Virus record (IMG/VR): IMGVR_UViG_3300037076_000002
Coordinates: 1-25,686 of that record
Strand: one strand, 5' to 3'
From: a virus
Length of the DNA stretch: 25,686 nucleotides
Shown: one piece after another, positions 5,442-25,101 of the stretch
Numbering within the stretch: the first letter of the stretch is position 1
How the letters are laid out: the number at the start of each line of letters is the position of its first letter
Made by a program: the position numbers and the translations under genes
Notes under the pieces: generated by a model
Told to the model about the DNA's origin: nothing
The model's input: only the letters and a program-made list of their open reading frames with translations
Databases searched by the model: none

Positions 5442-5828
5442 TCAGTGCGTCATCATGTAGATGGAGAAGGCGATGGTGGCCAGCGCTGCGAGCCCGATGA
5501 ACACGGCGAAGAGCCGCTGAAAGGGCGTCCACTGCTGTGTCGAGTTGTCGACTGCAGCCTTAGCCATGGCAACCCGCGCCTCATCTGCGGCCTTCACCGC
5601 AGCAGCAGCCAGCGTGCGAGCCTCCTCAGCGCCCTTCATGTCCGACTCGAGCTGCTGAGTCACGGACTGAAGGGCTCGGATCTCCCCCCGGTGCAGGGTC
5701 ACCTCGGCCCGCAGATCGGAGACCTTCTCCACCACCGAATCGAGCTTGCCCTCCATGCGCGTGAGCGTGATGGCCATCGCCTCCGCTTCACGCGGCTCGA
5801 TCGCCTGAGCCATCCCCCCGTCGCCCAT
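5442..5828 (-). CDS. Coiled-coil protein with C-terminal membrane helix, possible second holin or lysis regulator (128 aa)
   Basis: Residues about 18-95 are a long charged helix likely to form a coiled coil (RMEGKLDSVVEKVSDLRAEVTL onwards, with Ala-rich repeats). Residues about 105-126 (LFAVFIGLAALATIAFSIYMM) form one hydrophobic segment, leaving a two-residue tail. Such a cytoplasmic coiled coil anchored by a C-terminal helix is common beside holins in actinophages. The start overlaps the preceding stop as TGATG; a second ATG five codons later is possible. It may be a pinholin, an antiholin or a membrane-tethered regulator. The sequence does not decide this. Confidence 0.7.
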   Translation of the reverse strand: MGDGGMAQAIEPREAEAMAITLTRMEGKLDSVVEKVSDLRAEVTLHRGEIRALQSVTQQLESDMKGAEEARTLAAAAVKAADEARVAMAKAAVDNSTQQWTPFQRLFAVFIGLAALATIAFSIYMMTH

Positions 5829-6235
5829 CAGCTCAGGGTCGTGGTGCCGTCAGCAGCCACGCTCGTGATCGCCCCGTCAGCGTTCGCTGTGACAGACGGG
5901 GCGACCACCACGGGATCGATCGCGTGAGCCGGAACAGGTGCAGGGCTCGTGGCGACCTCGATCTTGTTGGCGACCCCGGACGGCTTCCACACGCCTTCAT
6001 AGACGCTGACCGCTGCGATGACGACGCCCGTGACGAAGACGAGGATCTTGGTCGGGTCGCTGACCTCGAGGCCGTTTGTCGACACGTAGCCGACGAGGCC
6101 CGCCAGGACCGACATGCCGACGCCGATGATGGTCCGGGTGCGGCTCGACCAGCGCTTCTGCTGCACGATGGCGGTGACCAGCGGCAGGACTGTGCCGATG
6201 GCGAGAATGAGTGCGACGGTCTGCTCGGTGGTCAT
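5828..6235 (-). CDS. Putative holin (135 aa)
   Basis: Three hydrophobic segments are visible: about residues 6-25 (TVALILAIGTVLPLVTAIV), 36-52 (IIGVGMSVLAGLVGYVS) and 63-80 (KILVFVTGVVIAAVSVYEG). A basic loop (QQKRWSSRTR) separates the first two. The 50-residue tail is Ala/Val/Pro-rich and polar. Size, topology and location two genes after the endolysin match phage holins, which form lesions in the cell membrane to release the endolysin. There is no strong sequence signature, so the call rests on membrane segments and context. The ATG lies one base after the previous stop. Confidence 0.75.
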   Translation of the reverse strand: MTTEQTVALILAIGTVLPLVTAIVQQKRWSSRTRTIIGVGMSVLAGLVGYVSTNGLEVSDPTKILVFVTGVVIAAVSVYEGVWKPSGVANKIEVATSPAPVPAHAIDPVVVAPSVTANADGAITSVAADGTTTLS

Positions 6236-6519: not shown

Positions 6520-6729
6520 TCAGACCGCCTTGATGGACTTGGCGACCTTGGCGCACATGGTGCGGATGAGGTCGACCTGCCTGTCGTTGAAGTCGCCCTT
6601 GGTGCCCTCGTCGGTGACGCCTGGGAGGCTGCGCAGTTGGTCGTCCTCCTCCGATGTCGGCGTCCAGAAGGCACCGGTGCCGATGTTTGCGGCGTACACA
6701 CTGCCTCGGTTCGTGAATCGAACGGTCAT
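6520..6729 (-). CDS. Possible internally started C-terminal endolysin domain (69 aa)
   Basis: The endolysin frame contains an ATG at 6727-6729 preceded by AGGAGG five bases upstream, as good as the best gene starts in the window. Translation from there gives the C-terminal domain only (MTVRFTNRG to SIKAV). Endolysins such as Lys170 of an Enterococcus phage are known to make a free cell-wall-binding subunit from an in-frame internal start and to assemble it with the full-length enzyme. Whether this happens here is inference. Confidence 0.5.
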   Translation of the reverse strand: MTVRFTNRGSVYAANIGTGAFWTPTSEEDDQLRSLPGVTDEGTKGDFNDRQVDLIRTMCAKVAKSIKAV

Positions 6730-7299
6730 GTCGTCCTCCTGTGTGAGTGGTGCTGGTGTCGGGGAGTTGGTCGGGAATGAGGGTGCGCTGGGGATGTGAA
6801 CGGTGCCCGACGCGATGCCACCGGGGCTTCCCGAGTGAGTGCCGTAGGCAGGCGCCCCGTAGCCGTAGATGTACGAGTCGGCGCGGTTGTGGGCCTTCTG
6901 GTAGACGCCATCGCCTTCTGGTGACCCGTTGGTGTTGGTGTTCCCCTCGACCGTGGTGATCGTGGTCGCGGTGATGCCGACGACGATTCCGGTGTGCTCG
7001 CCACCTCCTGGGCCGTACAGAACCTGAGCGCCGAGCGTGGGGGTCGTTGACCAGCGCTTGCGGGACTTCCATCCGGCGACGCTCACGGCACACGAGGCGG
7101 ACACTGGGAAGTCGGCCAGGCCTGCCTGGTGGAAGCACCAAGCCACGAACACGTCGCACCAGGCGTACCCGTTGGCCCATTCCAGGCCGGGGACCTGGGC
7201 AGCGTACTTCTCGATGTTGTTCCAGTGGCCCCCGGAGAAGCCCTCGCGGTAGCCGACCTGGGTCTTGGCGATGTCGATCACTTGCTGCGCTGTGGGCAT
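6520..7299 (-). CDS. CHAP-domain endolysin (259 aa)
   Basis: This is a peptidoglycan hydrolase of the CHAP (cysteine amidase/peptidase) type that degrades the host wall at the end of infection. Residues 1-150 carry the domain: Cys48 in YAWCDVFVAW, His102 in GGGEHTGIVV and Asn120 in VEGNTNTNG form the expected triad, and the AKTQVGYREG start and GDGVYQK segment are typical. A Gly/Pro/Ser-rich linker (about 152-188) leads to a 69-residue C-terminal domain starting MTVRFTNRG, probably for wall binding. There is no signal peptide, so export relies on holin. Inside the frame a perfect ribosome site precedes the C-terminal domain, described separately. Confidence 0.93.
   Translation of the reverse strand: MPTAQQVIDIAKTQVGYREGFSGGHWNNIEKYAAQVPGLEWANGYAWCDVFVAWCFHQAGLADFPVSASCAVSVAGWKSRKRWSTTPTLGAQVLYGPGGGEHTGIVVGITATTITTVEGNTNTNGSPEGDGVYQKAHNRADSYIYGYGAPAYGTHSGSPGGIASGTVHIPSAPSFPTNSPTPAPLTQEDDMTVRFTNRGSVYAANIGTGAFWTPTSEEDDQLRSLPGVTDEGTKGDFNDRQVDLIRTMCAKVAKSIKAV
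6735..6740 (-). promoter_or_regulatory. Strong internal Shine-Dalgarno site in endolysin gene
   Basis: AGGAGG reads on the minus strand, followed by ACGAC and ATG. It falls at the end of the proline-rich linker, exactly at the boundary of the C-terminal domain. Confidence 0.7.
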
Positions 7300-22865: not shown

Positions 22866-24602
22866 TCACACCACGATCAGATCTGACGTCTCGTACTTCG
22901 ACACTCGCTTGGGTTCCATCGCCAGGACCAGCGACATGGCGTTGATCACCGCGGCGATCGCGTCGATCTTGTCGGCCGCGCGCGCCTTATCCGGCTTGAC
23001 GTTGCCCGCAGCGTCGAGCATCACGGCAAAGTTGTCGACCTGCCAGCGCACCGCAGGATTGCCACCATGGCGGAACATCGGAACCTCAGCCGTACCCTCG
23101 AGGAGGATGCGCTGCAGTTCCTTCGTTGGCGCGGACAGGGTGAGCAGACCTTGTCGGGTCTTCACCATCGGCGCCCCGTCGCTCACGAGGTCGTTGACGA
23201 GCTGGCTCGAGTTCCACGGGTCGTATGCGAGGCCCTGCACGTCGAACGCTTCACGGTCTCGGTTGATCTGCGCCCTGATGAAGTCGTAGTCCGCGACGTT
23301 GCCCGGCGTGAGCGTCAGGAAGCCCCCACGCACCCACACGGTCGCCATGCCCGCGGTCCGCTTGTCCAGCGACTCCAGGTTCGCTTCCGGCGTCCACATC
23401 CGCCACACCGCATCAAAGCCACGATCGCCAGGAAGCAGCCACGCCAGCGCACACAAGTCCGACGTGGACGCGAGGTCGAGGCCGCCGTACGCCTGCCGAC
23501 CCTTCAGGTTCGTCTCGTCGATGATGCCGCGATTACGGTCCCATGCCGTGAGGTCTAGGTACTTCGTCTCCTGCTTCGTCCGCAGCCCCAGGTGCAGCCG
23601 CAGATACTTCGCGAGATCGGCCGGAGACTGCTGAGCTTCGGCCGCCGCTGACTTGAGGTAGGAGCGCGTCGGCGAGATCCCATAGCCAGGGTTCGCCGAC
23701 CTCTGCGTCTCCTCCGAGAACGGGTCCGCCTTCGGATCAGCGGCCCACACGACGCCGTATGTCGACGGGTCCTTGATCGCACCACGGGCCAACTGCTCGA
23801 CATACTCGCGCTTGCGGGCGTAGATTGTGCCCTGCTTACCCGAGTCGGCCGTCGTGATAGTTGCGCTGAGCGGCTGGCGACGCGACCCCGTGCCCGTCTC
23901 GATCGTCTCGACCAGGTCTGGCGTCTTGTGTACGTGGAGCTCGTCAACACATGAGCAGTGGATGTTGGCCCCGTGCTGGGCGTCCGCTACCGACGACACG
24001 ACCTCGATGTACGAACCCGACTTCGGGTGCAGCACCTTCTTGCCGACTGCGCGCACATGCTTCTTGAGCGCCGGTGACTTGCTCGCGAGCGTCTTGATGG
24101 GGTTGAAGACGAACCCGGCCTGACGCTCCGACGTTGCTGCGCACACAACCTGCGCGCCCGGCTCACCGTCAGCGGCCAGCATGTAGATCGCGATCCCGCC
24201 GAGCAGCGTCGACTTGCCATTCTTGCGAGGAACGTCGACATACAGCTTGCGGATGATCCGCACGTACTGGCCGGCGTCCTTGTCGAACACGACCCAGCCG
24301 AACACGGGCGCCAGGATGTAGGCGACCTGCCACGGGTCCGGCTTCAGCGGCGATCCGGCCCACTGGCCCGACACGTGTCTGAGAGCACCGAATGCGGCGA
24401 GCACCTTGTCGACGCGCTCGGGGTCGAACACGGCACCCTTGACGCGGCGCGGCTCAGGTGTCTTGATCCGGGGCGGGCAGTCGGGGAACGGAATGCCGCG
24501 AGACGTCAGGTAGTAGGCGACCTCGGGCGAGATCTTGAGGTCGTCGGCCGTCTTCGGCGCGGCGCCCCTGGTCAGGCTAGGCGAACGGGTCGGCCTCGTC
24601 AT
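22866..24602 (-). CDS. terL: Terminase large subunit (578 aa)
   Basis: This is the DNA packaging motor: an N-terminal ATPase and a C-terminal RNase H-like nuclease. The Walker A motif is PRKNGKST (residues about 125-132), Walker B is CSCVDE with Asp220-Glu221, then the coupling region TITTADSGKQG. In the nuclease Asp376 (YGGLDLAST), Asp461 (YDPWNS) and Asp547 (ADKIDAIAAVINAM) are the probable metal ligands. ATG at 24600-24602 has GGAGG six bases upstream and overlaps the small subunit end by 26 bp; longer in-frame starts are not supported. The architecture is that of HK97-like, cos- or pac-type actinophage terminases. Confidence 0.96.
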   Translation of the reverse strand: MTRPTRSPSLTRGAAPKTADDLKISPEVAYYLTSRGIPFPDCPPRIKTPEPRRVKGAVFDPERVDKVLAAFGALRHVSGQWAGSPLKPDPWQVAYILAPVFGWVVFDKDAGQYVRIIRKLYVDVPRKNGKSTLLGGIAIYMLAADGEPGAQVVCAATSERQAGFVFNPIKTLASKSPALKKHVRAVGKKVLHPKSGSYIEVVSSVADAQHGANIHCSCVDELHVHKTPDLVETIETGTGSRRQPLSATITTADSGKQGTIYARKREYVEQLARGAIKDPSTYGVVWAADPKADPFSEETQRSANPGYGISPTRSYLKSAAAEAQQSPADLAKYLRLHLGLRTKQETKYLDLTAWDRNRGIIDETNLKGRQAYGGLDLASTSDLCALAWLLPGDRGFDAVWRMWTPEANLESLDKRTAGMATVWVRGGFLTLTPGNVADYDFIRAQINRDREAFDVQGLAYDPWNSSQLVNDLVSDGAPMVKTRQGLLTLSAPTKELQRILLEGTAEVPMFRHGGNPAVRWQVDNFAVMLDAAGNVKPDKARAADKIDAIAAVINAMSLVLAMEPKRVSKYETSDLIVV

Positions 24603-25101
24603 CGTCGGCCTCCCGCACAGCAAGCTTGTTCTCAGCGGAGGGCGTGAACCCGAACTCCCCCGCCCACGCGCGCAGTTCCTTCGACGCGGCCTCAGCGATC
24701 GCAACCCACGGAGCACGGACGATGCCCTGCGAGTTCTTGCCAAGCAGGCCATAGCCGGCGATCGTCACCGCATCGATAACCTCGCCAGCGTCATCCTTGA
24801 TCGGATGGACGCTGAGGATGCGGTTCTCGGCGATCAGCTTCTGGGCATCCACCAGCCGCTGCCATGTCAGGCAGTACGCCGTCAGGGATGCGCGGTCAAC
24901 GGGCTTCAGCAGTTCGAGGCGGGCCAGTTCGGGAACGATGCGCGCCCACTCGGCAGCGGCCTCATCGGGCAGCCAGTCGGGAGCCTCGGGTGGCAGCCGC
25001 TTGAACGCGGGCGGCTTCGCGACCTTGCGGCCACCAGAGTCCGTGCCGTTGCCGCGGCCAGCGATCAGGCGAAGCGATGCGGGAGCGGTTGCGCGAGGCA
25101 T
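24577..25101 (-). CDS. terS: Terminase small subunit, P27 family (174 aa)
   Basis: This recognises phage DNA and recruits the large subunit. The layout is typical of the P27 family: ASLRLIAGRGNGTDSGGRK, PPEAPDWLPDEAAAEWARIVPELARLELL, VDRASLTAYCLTWQRLVDAQKLIAEN and a C-terminal KELRAWAGEFGFTPSAENKLAVRE. The tail is acidic. The ATG overlaps the previous stop as TGATG. The recognised DNA sequence is not visible here. Confidence 0.93.
   Translation of the reverse strand: MPRATAPASLRLIAGRGNGTDSGGRKVAKPPAFKRLPPEAPDWLPDEAAAEWARIVPELARLELLKPVDRASLTAYCLTWQRLVDAQKLIAENRILSVHPIKDDAGEVIDAVTIAGYGLLGKNSQGIVRAPWVAIAEAASKELRAWAGEFGFTPSAENKLAVREADDDEADPFA

Follow-up and report, generated by a model that had tools for sequence, protein, structure and literature searches.

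The window, that is the whole 25.7 kb stretch of DNA analysed, is a viral contig with head, tail and lysis genes on its minus strand. Its nearest named relatives by nucleotide comparison are Gordonia phages, via the terminase only, and its endolysin is closest to those of Streptomyces phages. The features of the endolysin gene and of the two genes that follow it are:

6520..7299, minus strand: endolysin gene, 259 aa, 27.4 kDa, with CHAP domain, linker and C-terminal binding domain (PHROG 9589 endolysin, E 9.9e-63, aa 4-181)
6940..7176, minus strand: CHAP catalytic domain, aa 42-120 (PF05257, E 1.8e-9)
6730..6846, minus strand: Pro/Ser/Thr/Gly-rich linker, aa ~152-190, ending in LTQEDD (from the sequence; most relatives stop aligning about here)
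6735..6740, minus strand: internal Shine-Dalgarno (SD) AGGAGG, followed by the spacer ACGAC (6730-6734) (from the sequence)
6727..6729, minus strand: internal in-frame start ATG, Met191 (from the sequence)
6523..6729, minus strand: C-terminal binding domain, 69 aa, predicted free product of 7.5 kDa (AlphaFold2 model; VIA-align Z 5.0-5.7; profile match to Microbacterium phage domains)
6237..6518, minus strand: next gene, PHROG 19300, function unknown, starting directly past the endolysin stop (context only)
5828..6235, minus strand: putative holin (weak PHROG 8269 holin match, E 0.004; context only)

The endolysin carries one CHAP catalytic domain and then one C-terminal fold of 69 residues. 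In the aligned relatives, the CHAP residues C48, H102 and N120 are invariant and E118 is nearly so. These relatives match the protein as far as about residue 150-200, beyond which their C-terminal modules differ; named by reading their sequences, the modules are mostly of the peptidoglycan-binding or LysM type. The CHAP endolysins of phiC31 (gp50) and PHROG 9589 have a CHAP domain about 50% identical to that of the window but peptidoglycan-binding or LysM-type C-termini, mostly without a strong internal start. The capsid relatives of the contig either carry other endolysins or have a sequence that ends before any endolysin, and so provided no orthologous pair of endolysins for comparison. Two adjoining CHAP-lysin reading frames are found at each of two other loci (L145:4612-6776 and L172:3659-5831); the C-terminal region of the first frame looks structural (NNLVADTLSVDG...) and the second frame resembles a usual endolysin.

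Among the other genes of the contig, the PHROG 19300 gene, whose product begins with MKPTIGRI, has 120 relatives in viral contigs, in very varied neighbourhoods, and is apparently present in tandem once (L071); no stand-alone copy of the 69-aa domain was found around it in 80 loci. The terminase large subunit reading frame (22866-24752, minus strand) probably starts at codon 51 (GGAGG-N6-ATG) rather than at its first ATG; a relative (L024) aligns to it from about residue 46.

The original prediction placed a perfect ribosome site at the junction of the linker and the C-terminal 69 residues, and this is confirmed. Indeed, AGGAGG-ACGAC-ATG lies at 6740-6727 on the minus strand, in frame at codon 191, where it ends the Pro/Thr-rich linker and leaves 69 aa (7.5 kDa) to be translated. 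As to the claim that this signal is stronger than many real gene starts, the duplex with 16S rRNA over the 20 nt upstream has an energy of -10.3 kcal/mol at the internal start versus -6.5 kcal/mol at the endolysin's own start, and AGGAGG precedes none of the 25 longest-ORF starts in the window. The internal start's 11-mer AGGAGGACGAC recurs 90 bases downstream (6640-6650 and 6730-6740, minus strand); this second copy lies inside the binding domain (EEDDQ) and has no start codon after it, and by chance close to zero such pairs would be expected.

Direct searches with the 69-aa sequence gave no match in Pfam, PHROGs, phages, viral contigs, genome contigs, plasmids, PDB sequences or the records of the CHAP relatives. 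Modelled from the single sequence by AlphaFold2, residues 191-259 confidently give four strands and two helices with a mean pLDDT of 87.9 and a pTM of 0.70, and the first strand occupies residues 2-7 of the model, so that the site sits exactly at the domain boundary. According to this model, the 69 residues form a self-contained fold of which the internal start is the first residue.

A Foldseek search of the PDB with this model returned many PlyCB chains, with poor E-values around 1. The 373 PDB chains proposed by Foldseek were then realigned with VIA-align. The top chain was 3l9a, an uncharacterised domain from S. mutans (Z 6.5). Six PlyCB entries came next with Z 5.5-5.7 (2.0-2.1 A over 52 residues), then LysIME-EF1 with Z 5.4 and the binding domain (CBD) of Lys170 with Z 5.0, ahead of the next unrelated chain at Z 3.5. 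Each of these values is modest, and in small domains a Z of 5-6 may arise from a common arrangement of elements; the top group, barring 3l9a, nevertheless consists of the binding domains of multimeric endolysins. The alignment with LysIME-EF1 starts at residue 2 of the 69-aa domain and at residue 168 of LysIME-EF1, which is its verified internal start. The domain is therefore predicted to have the fold of the PlyCB, LysIME-EF1 and Lys170 binding domains, and the comparison with Lys170 made in the original prediction appears structural as well as formal, since the predicted fold matches all three above unrelated folds. In sequence, the domain resembles that of LysIME-EF1 only weakly, 67 of 5,000 shuffles scoring as well.

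Relatives of the domain were reached through this predicted fold, then through the endolysins of ISF9 and Ixel. The second viral match of Foldseek was an endolysin of the M23 type, from Microbacterium phage vB_MoxS-ISF9; its C-terminal half holds two copies of a domain that has a (N)DRQxDLxR-like stretch in common with the 69 residues. A search with the ISF9 domain led to Ixel gp23, which carries the same kind of domain behind an M23 peptidase, and alignment led to two viral contigs, L255 and L256. With a five-sequence profile of the relatives, the 259-aa endolysin ranks first among the ORFs of the window (E 8.7e-4) and scores above all 20,000 composition shuffles; pairwise z values are 5.5-6.6. 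The L255 domain, modelled separately (pLDDT 88), shows the same structural elements, and its top eight PDB entries are PlyCB, LysIME-EF1 and Lys170, the next chain having a Z of 3.3. The domain profile found nothing in 396 actinobacterial genomes, a set that included no positive control.

The first viral match of Foldseek, a 132-aa protein of phage MementoMori, was considered as a stand-alone gene of the 69-aa domain and rejected, its sequence similarity not exceeding chance. By length and sequence, this match is most likely gp79 (L339:43563-43961, 132 aa), which has what looks like a membrane helix at its N-terminus and, after it, a paralogue of the domain that ends MementoMori's own endolysin (alignment z 17.7). 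The gene for gp79 lies about 18 kb away from the lysis genes, and its product is apparently an endolysin binding domain copied and anchored in the membrane.

The junction itself recurs among the relatives of the domain. It reads CACAGGAGGACGAC-ATG (TQEDD-M) in the window and CACAGGAGGACAGC-ATG (TQEDS-M, Met167) in Ixel gp23, CGAGGGAGAAACC-ATG with an SD of GAGGGAG in L255, and TGGAGCTGAA-ATG with an SD of only GGAG in ISF9; in L256, the Met is kept and the SD is weak. Globally, a Met stands at the domain start in five of five fused relatives, the window's included, and the SD is perfect in Ixel and the window. Since Ixel and ISF9 have M23-type endolysins and the window a CHAP endolysin, it is the binding domain, rather than the catalytic one, that the junction accompanies.

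Other M23 endolysins of Microbacterium phages likewise have a strong site where the linker ends, namely, with AGGAGG, those of MementoMori (M169), Margaery (M147), Efeko (M155) and Merry (M163), and, with a weaker one, that of OscarSo (M154); the C-terminal sequences of these five proteins differ from the 69-aa domain. Among 103 CHAP relatives, AGGAGG-N5-start occurs at the linker end in L166 (GTG), L109 (ATG) and likewise L165 (TTG), whereas the CHAP homologues with peptidoglycan-binding tails mostly show nothing comparable. When perfect AGGAGG-N4-9-start sites were counted outside the ends of genes, with control genes taken from the same records, 6 of 10 endolysins had an in-frame internal site, always at the linker end, versus 2 sites in 98 other genes. 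Fisher's test gives p 3e-6, and leaving out the three endolysins that were not picked blind (the window's, Ixel's and that of ISF9) raises this to 1e-4; both values overstate independence because the endolysins are mutually related.

Internal second starts in lysis enzymes are known from a handful of phages. LysIME-EF1 comprises a CHAP domain (1-143), a linker (144-167) and a binding domain (168-237), with a verified internal start, 502ATG504, at Met168; one full-length chain assembles with three free binding domains, and activity is nearly lost once the contacts between binding domains are broken (PMC7098653). The endolysin of the window has the layout of LysIME-EF1 and Lys170: a catalytic domain (CHAP in LysIME-EF1 also), a linker, a C-terminal binding domain of ~70 aa, an internal SD with an in-frame ATG where that domain begins and, as predicted here, the same binding-domain fold. 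It differs from them in that they come from phages of enterococci (IME-EF1 and F170/08), that the domain sequence is only faintly similar and that their 1:3 assembly is shown by experiment, whereas assembly of the window's endolysin is a prediction. It also resembles PlyC of streptococcal phage C1 in the predicted PlyCB fold of its binding subunit; however, PlyCB comes from a separate gene, with eight copies per PlyCA, whereas in the window the binding domain lies in the endolysin frame with its own start. Finally, it belongs by layout with the class of Pinto 2022, in which a single gene carries a second, in-frame start that separates the catalytic part from the binding part and which was predicted to include about half of Gram-positive phage endolysins (PMC9430671). 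In that work, the mycobacteriophage examples have two catalytic domains, whereas the multimerising examples with one catalytic domain come from Firmicutes phages (PMC9430671).

Taken with the model of the domain and by analogy with these enzymes, it is likely, with considerable confidence, that one frame yields both the full endolysin and free 69-aa binding domains that assemble together, most likely as a ring. Ribosomes starting at 7299 would produce the CHAP domain, the flexible linker and the binding domain, while those starting at the internal AGGAGG-N5-ATG would produce only the 69-residue binding domain. The free domains would then join the binding domain of the full-length chain, in a ring that could be 1:3 as in Lys170 and LysIME-EF1, 1:5 or of another order. 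Because free domains would assemble with the full chain, several binding domains would anchor a single catalytic domain to the wall, with a gain in avidity. What the analysis itself shows is that the site exists and lies at the edge of the domain, that the domain has this predicted fold and belongs to a family of relatives, and that the junction recurs. Use of the site, assembly and stoichiometry are inferred on the model of LysIME-EF1 and the Pinto 2022 class, and the binding to a cell-wall ligand is likewise inferred. The earlier proposal of two products with free binding subunits thus emerges as a well-supported prediction, owing to the fold match, the position of Met168 in LysIME-EF1 and the recurring junction.

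The internal start could also be used to make a free binding domain that acts apart from the enzyme, for example by occupying wall sites or tuning the timing of lysis. Such a case has a precedent in LysJavan488, whose two polypeptides do not interact; however, LysJavan488 has two catalytic domains, and the only heteromultimers described come from endolysins that pair a single catalytic domain with a single binding domain (Pinto 2022, PMC9430671), which is the type found in the window. As the fold predicted here is moreover that of ring-forming binding domains, a separately acting domain seems improbable.

The site could instead be incidental, only the full-length protein being made, since the acidic linker end QEDD written in preferred codons spells AGGAGG before the Met. 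Counted over both strands of the window, AGGAGG-N4-9-ATG occurs twice in all versus 0.95 expected, so that the motif by itself is not significant, and synonymous codon shuffling kept the site in 64% of shuffled endolysins, with 1.5 expected per window; as the QED peptide in preferred codons writes AGGAGG, codon choice gives no evidence of selection. However, permuting whole codons produced such a site somewhere along the endolysin in 0.4% of trials and never, in 4,001 trials, within 3 codons of M191, a figure that is after the fact because the position drew attention to the site. The comparative evidence is stronger than this figure: strong sites recur at the junction across differing catalytic and C-terminal domains, and the phages concerned seldom have them in their other genes. 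An incidental site is slightly less probable still than a domain acting apart. As for a relic of the fusion of a lysin with a formerly separate downstream gene, its start no longer used, the domain does have its own start signal and a complete fold, and the C-terminal modules of the CHAP relatives vary and are interchangeable, but this alternative, also raised in the original prediction, found no support and is very unlikely, as searches of phages, viral contigs and the 396 actinobacterial genomes turned up no separate gene for the domain, all relatives found are fused to catalytic domains and an unused relic is not expected to recur in several lineages.

If two products are made as proposed, the design itself is not new: two-polypeptide endolysins are already known from Lys170, LysIME-EF1 and the work of Pinto 2022, and are predicted to be common. 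What is new is a predicted domain of the PlyCB/Lys170 type in an endolysin of the actinobacterial-phage type, a small family of domains of this type among Microbacterium phages, and a junction shared by endolysins whose two kinds of catalytic domain are unrelated. We favour, by a narrow measure, the idea that an internal ribosome site and a PlyCB-type domain form a cassette that is swapped among endolysins of this type with unrelated catalytic domains (CHAP, and M23 in Ixel), which would give hetero-oligomeric ring endolysins outside Firmicutes phages. If so, ring-assembled endolysins with PlyCB-type subunits would not be limited to enterococcal and streptococcal phages, and the two-gene design of PlyC and the one-gene, two-product designs of Lys170, LysIME-EF1 and the window would have in common one binding-domain fold moving between catalytic domains. 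A motif [QE]E[DEG]xM at the linker end, corresponding to an in-frame AGGAGG-N5-start, may serve as a signature of hidden second endolysin products. Furthermore, when such endolysins are expressed with the internal start removed or recoded, the enzyme could be inactive.
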